Below, piece by piece: positions 59,837-64,000 of a stretch of 64,000 nt of DNA. Origin of the DNA: Candidatus Calditenuaceae archaeon. GTDB taxonomy: Archaea > Thermoproteota > Nitrososphaeria_A > Caldarchaeales > Calditenuaceae. The position numbers were made by a program, and so were the translations under genes. The stretch spans positions 248,001-312,000 of the forward strand of contig JANXED010000001.1 of assembly GCA_025058175.1 (NCBI GenBank), given 5' to 3'. Numbering within the stretch: position 1 is the first letter of the stretch; the number at the start of each line of letters is the position of its first letter. The notes under the pieces were generated by a model. It saw only the letters and a program-made list of their open reading frames with translations, was not told the origin of the DNA and ran no database searches.

Positions 59837-60715
59837 ATGGAGAGGCCTCCCTGGCTGAAGGTAGTCCTGCCCCACGGCCCTGTCTATGAAAGGGTGAGGG
59901 AGGTCGTCAGGAGGCACGGGCTCCACACGGTCTGTCAGTCCGCGATCTGCCCCAACGTCGGGGAGTGCTGGGGCTCGGGGACCGCCACGTTCATGATCCT
60001 CGGGGACGTCTGCACCAGGGGTTGCAGGTTCTGCGCGGTCACCCACGGCAACCCGAGGGGGTCGGTGGACCTCACGGAGCCCGAGAGGGTCGCGGCCGCG
60101 GTCTCCGAGCTAGGCCTCAGCTACGTCGTCATCACCTCGGTCTGCAGGGACGACCTCCCCGATGGGGGAGCGTCGGTCTTCGCGGAGACCGTGAGGGCGG
60201 TCAAGCGGAGGAACCCCGGCTCCCTGGTCGAGGTCCTGATTCCTGACTTCGAGGGCGAGAGGCGCGCGATCGAGGAGGTGGTGAGGGCGGGGCCGGACGT
60301 CGTCGGTCACAACGTCGAGACCGTGAGGAGGCTCACGCCGGTGGTCAGGGACAGGAGGGCCTCCTACGAGAGGTCGCTCGCGGTCCTCAGGACGGTCAAG
60401 GAGGTCGACCCGAGGATGATCACGAAGTCCTCGATGATGCTGGGGCTCGGCGAGACCGACGAGGAGGTCGTCGAGACGCTGAGGGACCTGAGGGCCGTTG
60501 GCGTCGACGTCGTGACGTTGGGTCAGTACCTGAGGCCGCTCGACTCGCCGCTTTACCTCCCGGTCGTCGAGTACGTGAGGCCCGAGAGGTTCAGAACGCT
60601 TGAGGAGGTCGCCTACCGGATGGGCTTCCTCTACGTCGCCTCCGGGCCGCTCGTGAGGAGCTCCTACAGGGCCGCCGAGGCCTTCGTCGCGTCCCTGGTG
60701 AGGGGCGTTGCGTGA
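59837..60715 (+). CDS. lipA: Lipoyl synthase
   Basis: A radical SAM enzyme that inserts two sulfur atoms into octanoyl groups. The 292-residue protein has both clusters: CQSAICPNVGECW near residue 34 (auxiliary cluster CX4CX5C) and CTRGCRFCAVTHG near 57 (CX3CX2C radical SAM cluster), VVITSVCRDDLPDGGASVF near 95 and SSMMLGLGETDEEV near 197. The RSSY motif at the C-terminus, which gives a ligand to the auxiliary cluster, is seen as VRSSYRAAEAF. lipB follows, overlapping by eight bases, so both steps of de novo lipoylation are made together. Confidence 0.95.
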   Translation: MERPPWLKVVLPHGPVYERVREVVRRHGLHTVCQSAICPNVGECWGSGTATFMILGDVCTRGCRFCAVTHGNPRGSVDLTEPERVAAAVSELGLSYVVITSVCRDDLPDGGASVFAETVRAVKRRNPGSLVEVLIPDFEGERRAIEEVVRAGPDVVGHNVETVRRLTPVVRDRRASYERSLAVLRTVKEVDPRMITKSSMMLGLGETDEEVVETLRDLRAVGVDVVTLGQYLRPLDSPLYLPVVEYVRPERFRTLEEVAYRMGFLYVASGPLVRSSYRAAEAFVASLVRGVA

Positions 60716-61460
60716 GGCCAAGAGACTGCTCTTCTTCTGCGATCTCGGGAGGACCTCATATGACGACTGCCACCGTCTGATGCTGGGGCTGGTAGGCCTC
60801 AGGGCGAGGGGGTGCGTCGGGGACGTCGTACTCATCACCGAGCACGAGCACGTCTACACGCTCGGGAGGCACGCGAGGCCCGACCAGGTCTTTAACGACG
60901 CCGTTCCGGTGAGGACCGTCGAGAGGGCCGGAGGTCCCACCTACCACGGTCCAGGTCAGCTCGTCGCTTACCCGGTGATCAGGCTCGCGGACTGGGGGCT
61001 GGGACCCGCGGACCTCGTCAGGGCCCTAGAGGCCTCGGTGGTCTCGGTGCTCGGGGAGCTGGGGATCCGGTCGGAGCCCGGGAGCCCGTCGGGGAGGCCG
61101 GGCGTCTGGGTCGACGGCAGGAAGATCGCGTCTATTGGGATGGCGGTAAGGGACGGCGTCAGCTTCCACGGCGTCGCGCTCAACGTCTCAGCCGACCTCT
61201 CGATGTTCCGCGGGATCTCCCCCTGTGGTATGTCGCCTGACGTGATGACCTCGGTCGAGCGCGAGCTCGGCAAGCGCGTCGGCCTGGAGGCCGTCAAGCC
61301 GCTCTTCGTGAGGGAGTTCTCGGCGCTACTCGGCGCTGAACCCCTCGCGGCCCAGAGGAGGGAGCTCGAGTCCGGTGCGGTCTGGACGCTCCTCGCAGTA
61401 AGCCGGTCCCACGAGGGTCCGAGGCGCGTTCCGGCCCTGGACGATCGTCGTGAGAGGTAA
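60708..61460 (+). CDS. lipB: Octanoyl-(acyl carrier protein):protein octanoyltransferase
   Basis: It transfers the octanoyl chain to the lipoyl domain lysine that LipA will sulfurate. The 250-residue protein has YTLGRHARPDQV near residue 46, RAGGPTYHGPGQLVAYPVI near 68 (RGG-like and HGPGQ motifs), the lysine in GRKIASIGMAVRDG near 137 and the catalytic cysteine in ISPCGMSPDVMTS near 170. It starts at TTG 60708 within the end of lipA; no GTG or ATG is in frame nearby. Lipoate-using enzymes (2-oxoacid dehydrogenases, glycine cleavage H) are not in the window. Confidence 0.92.
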   Translation: MREAKRLLFFCDLGRTSYDDCHRLMLGLVGLRARGCVGDVVLITEHEHVYTLGRHARPDQVFNDAVPVRTVERAGGPTYHGPGQLVAYPVIRLADWGLGPADLVRALEASVVSVLGELGIRSEPGSPSGRPGVWVDGRKIASIGMAVRDGVSFHGVALNVSADLSMFRGISPCGMSPDVMTSVERELGKRVGLEAVKPLFVREFSALLGAEPLAAQRRELESGAVWTLLAVSRSHEGPRRVPALDDRRER

Positions 61461-61497
61461 TACTTTGATATTTTGAGTGTCAGCGGTGAGCCAAACC

Positions 61498-61507
61498 GAA
61501 TTATATT
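61498..61507 (+). promoter_or_regulatory. TATA box of the RNA gene candidate
   Basis: The sequence gaattatatt, preceded by a purine-rich run, is centred 27 bases upstream of the start of a strongly foldable GC-rich stretch. It lies between two convergent genes and so cannot serve either of them. Confidence 0.6.
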
Positions 61508-61529: not shown

Positions 61530-61710
61530 GGGCGGGCCGGGAGAGGTGGTGCCCAGTTCGTGGGGGAAGCCTCGCGGGCTGGGTGCCTCGCTCGGCCCCG
61601 GAGGCCCGAAAGGGCTGCTGCGACCGGGCGGGGCACGGGGACGCTCTGCCCACCGGCGGCGACCGGGAAGGTGGGCGTGAGGACCTGCCCCACCGAAAGC
61701 CCGCCCGTCG
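61530..61710 (+). ncRNA. Unidentified structured RNA candidate of about 180 nt
   Basis: Between lipB and the convergent molybdenum hydroxylase gene is a GC-rich stretch that folds well by eye. GGGCGGGC at 61530-61537 pairs fully with GCCCGCCC at 61699-61706 and closes the structure. Inside are GGTGG/CCACC (61545/61690), GCCCAG/CTGGGT (61551/61579), a seven-pair hairpin with GAAG loop (61559-61576), GCCTCGC/GCGGGGC (61585/61628), a GAAA-capped hairpin near 61603-61616, and a seven-pair stem GCCCACC/GGTGGGC (61648/61670). A TATA box lies 27 bases upstream and a T-rich run follows. I see neither the conserved RNase P sequences nor SRP helix 8 motifs, so I give no identity. No plausible protein is encoded. 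Confidence 0.55.
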
Positions 61711-61721
61711 TTTCTCCTTGA

Positions 61722-64000
61722 TCAGAGTGTAACGCCCTTTGATCTCATCAGGGACCAGATGTAATCCGGTGTGACGGGCATTCTCTCGATCGCAATGTTT
61801 AGGTGGGAGAGGGCGTCCTCGACCGCGTTCACGACGGCCTGCGCGAACCCGATGGTCGCTGCCTCGCCCACGCCCTTCGCGCCCAGCGGGTTCGGTGCGG
61901 GCGTGACGGTCCTCTCCAGGACGAACTCCGGGACCTCGCACGCGGTCGGAACGAGGTAGTCGGCGAGGCTCTCGGTGAGGAGGTTGCCCTCGGGGCCGTA
62001 GCGGACCTCCTCGAGGAGCGCTTGACCTAGGGCCTGGACCGCGCCCCCGACGACCTGGCCCTCGACGAGCATCGGGTTGACGACGTTGCCCGCGTCGTCG
62101 ACGAGCACCGCCCTCTTCACGTCCACCCGACCGGTCTCGGGATCGACTTCCACGACCGCGACGTGGGCCCCGAACGGGTACGTCAGCTTGGGGACGTGGT
62201 GAGCGTAGGCCTCGAGTCCCACCTCCTCTCCGTCCGGCAGCTCCGACTCGTCGTAGGCGGCCTTCGCGACCTCCTCGAAGCCCACCGACCTCTCCGGGAC
62301 CCCCTTCACGCTGAACCGGCCCCCGATGAGCTCCACGTCCTCCGGCCTCGCCTCGAGGAGGTGGGCGGCGATCCTCCGCATCTTCTCCGCTACCCGCTCG
62401 CACGCCGAGAGTATCGCTGATCCTCCCGAGACCAGGGTCCAGCTGCCCGCGGTCCCGCCCCCGTACGGCGCGCTCTGGGTGTCGCCGAAGGACAGGCTCA
62501 CGTCCTCGATCCCGATCCCGAAGTAGTCGGCCACGAGCTGCGCGAAGGCGGTCAGGTCACCTTGGCCGTGCGGCGAGGTGCTGGTGAAGACGGTCACCTT
62601 CCCGTCGGGCTCGACCCTGACCTTCGCGGACTGCGAGGCAAAGTTGCAGACCTCGACGTAGGTCGAGATCCCAATCCCGATCAGCCTCCCCTCCTGCCTC
62701 GCCCACCTCTGCTCCTCCCTCCACTTCAGGTAATCGACGAGCTCCAGCGCCCTCCGTAGGGCCTTTTCGTAGTCGCCGCTGTCGTACTCGTGTCCTCCTA
62801 CCGTCTTGTAGGGGAACTCGTCCCTCCGGATGAAGTTCCTGAGCCTCAGCTCCGCGGGATCGATCCCGAGCTCCCTCGCGAGCCTCTCGACGCTCCTCTC
62901 GATCAGGAACGAAGCCTCCGGCCTTCCAGCCCCCCTGTAGGGCGCGGTCGGGACCTTGTTGGTGAAGGCCCCGACGACCTTTCCCTCGAAGCCGGTGAGC
63001 TTGTAGACGCCTGGCACCATCCCGAGCATCCCGGTGTAGACCGACTGGGTAAGGTGGTAGAAGTAGGCGCCGACGTCGCCGATCGCCTCAACCCTCACGC
63101 CCAGAAGCCTGCCGTCCGACTTCGCGGCCAGCTCAACCCTCGCGATCAGGCCCCTCCCGTGCGTCGTCGAGGAGAGGTTCTCGCGCCTCGTCTCGACCCA
63201 CTTCACCGGCCTGCCGAGCGCGACCGACGCCGCGGGGACCGCTACGTCCTCGGGGTAGTGGGGGATCTTCGACCCGAACGCGCCCCCGACGTCCGTGACC
63301 ACGACCCTCACCCTGTTCTGCGGTATGCCGAGGGCCTCTGACGTCCACTCCCTCAGGGAGTGCGGGAACTGGTGCGACGCGTGAACCTCCAACTGGCCCG
63401 TCGAGGGGTCGTAGCTCGCGAGTATACCCCTGGGCTCGATCGGCGTCGCCGCGACCCTCTGGACGGTGTGTCTGTATCTCACCACTCTGTCCGCGGACCT
63501 GAAGGCCCCGTCCGGGTCGCCGCCGACCCTGGTATAAGTGAAGGCGACGTTGTCCCCGAACTCCTCGTGGACCAACGGCGATCCGGGCCTGAGGGCCTCT
63601 TCGGGGTCCACGACGGCCTGCAGGGGCTCGTAACCGACTTCGACGAGGGCCACTGCGTCGTAGGCCGCGTACCTGTCCTCGGCGACTACCATCGCGACCG
63701 GTTCGCCCACGTACCTGACCTTCCTCTCCGCGAGCGGTTTGACCGGCGGCACCTTAGAGTACTTGGGGTTCGCGTTCACGGCCAGCGGTCCGACCCTCGG
63801 GTTCAGGTCTGCGCCAGTGAAGACCGCGACTACCCCCTGGGCCTTCACGGCCCTGCTGACGTCGATCGACCTGATGACCGCGTGCGGGTACGCGCTCCTC
63901 ACGAAGGCCGCGTGTAGGGTCCTGGGGAGCCAGAGGTCGTCGATGAAGCTGCCTCTGCCGATCAGGAGCTTCCGGTCCTCGATCCTAGGGACGGGCTTCC
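61722..64000 (-). CDS. Molybdenum hydroxylase large subunit, CoxL form II/xanthine dehydrogenase type (5' end outside window)
   Basis: The gene enters from the right edge and its start is outside the window; about 759 residues are seen. The family of aldehyde oxidase, xanthine dehydrogenase and aerobic CO dehydrogenase binds the molybdenum cofactor. Visible segments: RGSFIDDLWLPRTLHAAFVR near the visible start, GGAFGSK in DVGGAFGSKIPHYPED, APYRGAGRPEASF, which is the AYRGAGR form II signature and not the VAYRCSFR of true CO dehydrogenases, GGGTAGSWTL, and the C-terminal GAKGVGEAATIGFAQAV with the catalytic glutamate. Small Fe-S and FAD subunits are not seen here. The substrate is unknown, probably an aldehyde or heterocycle. 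Confidence 0.92.
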   Translation of the reverse strand, partial: KPVPRIEDRKLLIGRGSFIDDLWLPRTLHAAFVRSAYPHAVIRSIDVSRAVKAQGVVAVFTGADLNPRVGPLAVNANPKYSKVPPVKPLAERKVRYVGEPVAMVVAEDRYAAYDAVALVEVGYEPLQAVVDPEEALRPGSPLVHEEFGDNVAFTYTRVGGDPDGAFRSADRVVRYRHTVQRVAATPIEPRGILASYDPSTGQLEVHASHQFPHSLREWTSEALGIPQNRVRVVVTDVGGAFGSKIPHYPEDVAVPAASVALGRPVKWVETRRENLSSTTHGRGLIARVELAAKSDGRLLGVRVEAIGDVGAYFYHLTQSVYTGMLGMVPGVYKLTGFEGKVVGAFTNKVPTAPYRGAGRPEASFLIERSVERLARELGIDPAELRLRNFIRRDEFPYKTVGGHEYDSGDYEKALRRALELVDYLKWREEQRWARQEGRLIGIGISTYVEVCNFASQSAKVRVEPDGKVTVFTSTSPHGQGDLTAFAQLVADYFGIGIEDVSLSFGDTQSAPYGGGTAGSWTLVSGGSAILSACERVAEKMRRIAAHLLEARPEDVELIGGRFSVKGVPERSVGFEEVAKAAYDESELPDGEEVGLEAYAHHVPKLTYPFGAHVAVVEVDPETGRVDVKRAVLVDDAGNVVNPMLVEGQVVGGAVQALGQALLEEVRYGPEGNLLTESLADYLVPTACEVPEFVLERTVTPAPNPLGAKGVGEAATIGFAQAVVNAVEDALSHLNIAIERMPVTPDYIWSLMRSKGVTL

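Follow-up and report, generated by a model that had tools for sequence, protein, structure and literature searches.

Apart from rRNA, tRNA, RNase P RNA, SRP RNA and the guides for RNA modification, only a few classes of large structured RNA have, to our knowledge, been recognised in archaea. The RNA described here invites comparison with two of the established classes, archaeal RNase P RNA (RF00373), including its short type-T form, and archaeal SRP RNA (RF01857), which are likewise independent structured archaeal RNAs with a terminal closing helix. With RNase P RNA it also shares a compact multi-helix fold with long-range pairing, but it has neither an Rfam score nor a recognisable CR-I/CR-V pairing. 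SRP RNA differs in its length of about 300 nt and is encoded by a separate gene in the genomes G000, G001 and G002. A further point of reference is provided by the ToxI-like RNAs of type III toxin-antitoxin systems, where the gene for a pseudoknotted RNA is linked to that for a small nuclease-like protein. In these systems a tandem-repeat RNA precedes the toxin gene within one operon, whereas the new RNA is a single unit without a repeat array, has its own promoter and lies convergent with or downstream of the protein gene A8 introduced below; no relation between the two was found.

The window, i.e., the complete stretch of 64,000 nucleotides from a Calditenuaceae archaeon that was analysed, carries the RNA gene between lipB (+ strand, 60708-61460; LplA-B domain) and a gene for the large subunit of a molybdopterin-binding hydroxylase (- strand, ending at 61722). 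The first-pass annotation had placed it between two convergent genes and had concluded that it cannot serve a neighbour as riboswitch or leader. Both statements are correct: the next downstream gene is convergent in the window as well as in genera g6 and g13, and a cis-regulatory element was therefore rejected. When the + strand of 61530-61707 is folded, a minimum free energy of -120.6 kcal/mol is obtained (z = -4.3), which none of 200 dinucleotide shuffles reached, while the fold of the reverse strand is weaker (z = -2.1). The closing helix between both ends and the GAAG and GAAA loops of the first-pass annotation were recovered at the positions given in Table 1. Its several internal stems were also found, as P2, P3, P4, P4a and P5 inside P1; this picture was incomplete in that a pseudoknot between P4 and P5 had been missed. 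The TATA box proposed there is indeed well placed, and a similar promoter precedes the gene in two congeners.

Table 1 Features of the structured RNA gene and its promoter in the window
Feature	Position	Strand	Basis
Structured RNA gene	61530..61707	+	MFE z -4.3, homologues, covariation
BRE/TATA promoter, CCGAA + TTATATT	about 61495..61507 (TTATATT 61501-61507)	+	centre ~26 nt before RNA 5' end
P1 5' strand, GGCGGGC	61531..61537	+	pairs with 61699-61705; compensated changes at all 7 pairs between lineages
Conserved internal loop, 5' side, CGGGAGA (consensus [C/A]GGnnnA)	61538..61544	+	in all lineages
P2 5' strand, GGTGG	61545..61549	+	pairs with 61690-61694
P3 hairpin, apex GGGG-GAAG-CCTC (GAAG loop 61566-61569)	61553..61582	+	fold and copy comparison
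P4 arm with P4a hairpin GGCCC-GAAA-GGGCT (61603-61616; GAAA loop 61608-61611)	61583..61636	+	
Pseudoknot 5' strand, CCCGG	61597..61601	+	complement of 61663-61667; covaries across lineages
P5 arm; inner helix 61648-61654 with 61670-61676	61637..61686	+	
Pseudoknot 3' strand, CCGGG	61663..61667	+	complement of 61597..61601
P2 3' strand, internal-loop GAAA (61695-61698), P1 3' strand	61690..61705	+	

Searches of relatives, as suggested in the first-pass annotation, revealed the RNA in about 30 species, comprising Calditenuaceae, Terraquivivens, other genera of the Caldarchaeales and one family outside the order (f41). When three congeners were searched by BLAST, copies with 86% and 77% identity turned up in two, namely Calditenuaceae archaeon SKYB91 and Candidatus Calditenuis fumarioli. 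Both flanking genes are kept in SKYB91; in C. fumarioli, a gene resembling class I lysyl-tRNA synthetase, as read from the open reading frame, takes the place of lipB upstream of the RNA. A covariance model built from the three window-genus copies (R1) added Candidatus Terraquivivens (genus g6) to the carriers. In Ca. Terraquivivens tikiterensis (L046:1-626), the open reading frames indicate that a TnpB-like transposon gene has inserted into a gene for an ACR3-like arsenite transporter, which lies upstream of the RNA. A genome-wide pattern scan added AUK008 and AUK039; most of its 43 matches are due to chance, and only those in Calditenuaceae, Terraquivivens and the two AUK genomes score well with R1. 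With the A8 gene as landmark, the RNA was found adjoining in genera g10 and g12 and family f41, and a descriptor in which P1 and P2 flank the internal loop extended the set to genus g4 and to G027, the sole f4 genome with A8. Further species were added by BLAST and pattern searches. A second covariance model (R2), built only from g10, g12 and g13, recovers g6, f41, g4 and the window genus (L002 with 24 bits; L003 with only 14.6 bits, E 0.07), such that two independent models recover each other's families. Note that genome-wide scans with the RNA models are insensitive, and because they missed known copies in G211, G036 and G040, their negatives are not counted as absences; absence is stated only within genera, on the basis of BLAST and pattern searches. 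Three further sets of matches were discarded: L004, a 29-bp BLAST match in G014 that falls in a coding-like region and is apparently fortuitous, L162 in G058, and L178 and L179 on viral contigs, the latter two sets not being this RNA.

All copies have in common P1 with at least seven pairs, an internal loop, P2, the arms P3, P4 with P4a, and P5, and the P4-P5 pseudoknot. In the internal loop between P1 and P2, [C/A]GGnnnA faces GAAn (GAGN in two copies). Reading this loop as a K-turn was rejected because the G required for the sheared pair varies. P1 is perfectly paired in each lineage even though its strands differ in sequence from one lineage to another: 84 of 84 pairs form within a copy's own sequence, as opposed to a fraction of 0.64 when strands are crossed between lineages (permutation p ~5e-6). 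For the structure of alignment A10 as a whole, 57 double-change cells were counted versus 18 in shuffles and 5-12 with partners slid. The pseudoknot joins the nucleotides just 5' of P4a with the apical loop of P5, and its strands differ between lineages (GUGAGC/GCUCAC, AUGAAC/GUUCAU, CACGAC/GUCGUG, ACGGGC/GCCCGU, GGGGG/CCCCC and GGAGG/CCUCC, besides CCCGG/CCGGG in the window). Pairing was observed at 48 of 48 positions in f3 (permutation p 3e-4) and at 55 of 60 elsewhere (p 1e-5), with the strands set by hand from motif positions, so that their placement was not blind to complementarity. In g4 and f4 the pseudoknot competes with P4a, and in the MAFFT alignment that of g10 is out of register by one column. 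Covariation, also suggested initially as a check, is thus evident in P1 and in the pseudoknot; between lineages, both have been rebuilt through compensatory changes.

The promoter is conserved along with the structure. In all 28 copies inspected, P1 is preceded by a BRE/TATA-like box at a near-constant distance of 25-32 nt; for the window and L003 copies the automatic box picker took the neighbouring frame, the TATATT/CTATT box being visible in the sequence itself. T-rich stretches follow the RNA in most of the 28 copies. The RNA is encoded by a solitary gene, which in Calditenuis is sited away from A8.

Comparison with known RNA classes gave a uniform result. When element 61530-61707 was compared with Rfam 15, no match was obtained up to an E value of 5; a scan of the whole window at gathering thresholds returned one tRNA only; homologues of the RNA also had no match, and no earlier description was found in the open-access literature. 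Genuine archaeal RNase P RNA genes are present elsewhere in G001 and G002 (copies of 142-155 bits), in G003 and in most carriers of the new RNA, although none was found in G000, which is 57% complete. Genes for SRP RNA reside elsewhere in G000 (G000:C48:53112-53435), G001 and G002. Identity with RNase P RNA or SRP RNA was rejected on these grounds, in agreement with the first-pass annotation, whose suggestion of an independent and possibly new noncoding RNA is supported by the wide conservation, the strong covariation and the blank Rfam result. We thus state that 61530-61707 is no artefact, and we are nearly certain that it is a genuine, independent gene for a structured RNA that belongs to a new family.

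The wide distribution of the RNA and its link to the uncharacterised protein gene A8 had both escaped the first-pass annotation. In most lineages the RNA adjoins A8, as seen in family f3 (g6, g10, g12, g13), in g4 of f1, in G027 of f4 and in g92 of f41; AUK008 and AUK039 show the same arrangement as Terraquivivens. The two genes are convergent in Caldarchaeales and co-directional in f41. In the window genus they are not neighbours, and in the window genome they are about 270 kb apart. Within genera, presence and absence run in parallel. Both genes occur in three genomes of g1, five of g4, four of g10 and, in g7, in G027 only, while neither is found in G003 (g1; 73% complete), G006 (g4), G026 (g10) and three genomes of g7. 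A synteny-free tally in the same genera yields the RNA in 13 of 13 A8-positive and 0 of 6 A8-negative genomes (Fisher exact ~4e-5, ignoring phylogeny). Joint absence is weaker evidence where the genes are adjacent, because a single deletion can remove both, and since some genomes are also incomplete, co-occurrence supports rather than proves the link. No copy of the RNA was detected in f2, whose genomes carry A8, nor near A8 in most other A8-bearing families of Thermoproteota.

Other structured elements were observed around A8. Many other Thermoproteota families carry, 60-470 nt upstream of A8, a different, very stable hairpin-like element of 110-180 nt that is apparently divergent (L131, L130, L133, L138, L139, L140, L117, L135, L148, L156, L159 and L160). 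Several of these hairpins have GAAGTAGGCTT...GGCTTAGAC in common; nine loci scanned had no Rfam match, and R2 did not match these hairpins. In L149 (f18, G235), a GC-rich and extremely stable hairpin of about 240 nt lies downstream of A8 (z -5.5). A survey for GC bumps and fold z-scores near A8 in f7 and f21 yielded no convincing neighbour RNA, only weak windows with z of about -3 in f7. On the 3.1-kb contig L021 (G027:C46), A8 resides between the new RNA and an archaeal RNase P RNA gene.

A8 encodes a protein of about 225 amino acids that is present in 140 of 300 sampled Thermoproteota genomes, mostly as a single copy. Nothing significant was retrieved from Pfam, NCBIfam or PDB sequences, PADLOC gave no match, a PHROGs search gave one marginal match, and A8 was not found in the viral contigs searched. 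Four acidic residues are invariant (E59, D86, E99 and E101). The predicted model is an alpha-beta fold of low confidence (mean pLDDT 54), for which Foldseek returned weak matches to PD-(D/E)XK enzymes (best PDB match E 0.1). Together, these residues, the model and the weak matches suggest that A8 is possibly PD-(D/E)XK-like, and we infer a nuclease of this kind or an RNA-binding protein derived from one. With PD-(D/E)XK proteins such as the R2 endonuclease domain, I-Ssp6803I and NucS, A8 appears to share a helix-Glu, strand-Asp, ExE arrangement and, in its predicted model, the alpha-beta topology; it differs in having no significant sequence or fold match and in that the lysine of the ExK motif is not conserved, a glutamate apparently standing in its place.

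We propose, with a probability of roughly one half, that the RNA is a component of a ribonucleoprotein with A8. A role as scaffold or cofactor is put forward because the RNA is almost fully paired and contains no obvious single-stranded guide segment. The stand-alone gene would be transcribed from its own BRE/TATA promoter, and the product of about 178 nt would fold into a compact globule, in which P1 and P2, joined via the conserved internal loop, carry the arms P3, P4 and P5 on top and the P4-P5 pseudoknot serves as a lock. This globule would bind the conserved A8 protein and thereby give rise to the particle. More tentatively, A8 may form a novel archaeal ribonucleoprotein with lineage-specific structured RNA partners; in Caldarchaeales and f41 the partner would be the pseudoknotted RNA with its several branches, in several other families the long hairpin RNAs placed divergently upstream of A8.

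In principle, the RNA could also be an independent housekeeping or regulatory RNA, such as a protein-binding decoy, a polymerase regulator or a ribozyme, whose position near A8 merely reflects inherited synteny. Its own promoter, the unrelated neighbourhood in Calditenuis and the distribution of A8, which is far wider than that of the RNA as detected, fit such a role. We nevertheless regard it as less likely than the ribonucleoprotein, as adjacency recurs in distant families with differing orientation and both genes are jointly absent from G003, G006, G026 and the remaining genomes of g7. Less probable still is a toxin-antitoxin or defence pair, with A8 as a nuclease that the pseudoknotted RNA neutralises or activates in type III manner. 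The patchy joint distribution in f4 (one of eight genomes), the nuclease-like E59/D86/E99xE101 motif with its weak structural matches and the pseudoknot itself are what would be expected of such a pair; they are set against the separate promoters, the usually convergent genes, the lack of RNA repeats, the blank results with PADLOC and viral contigs, the apparent replacement of the catalytic lysine, and the widespread, mostly single-copy occurrence of A8, which is unlike that of a typical mobile toxin. Finally, a very divergent RNase P RNA, SRP RNA or other Rfam family can be dismissed with hardly any reservation, since the multi-helix character, the similar size class and the closeness of A8 to RNase P RNA in G027 are outweighed by the canonical genes elsewhere in the carriers and the failure of element and homologues to match Rfam.

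The new RNA combines strong covariation, a pseudoknot and a conserved promoter with a widespread, uncharacterised protein as candidate partner. With it, the question whether another conserved ribonucleoprotein exists in archaea becomes a concrete one.
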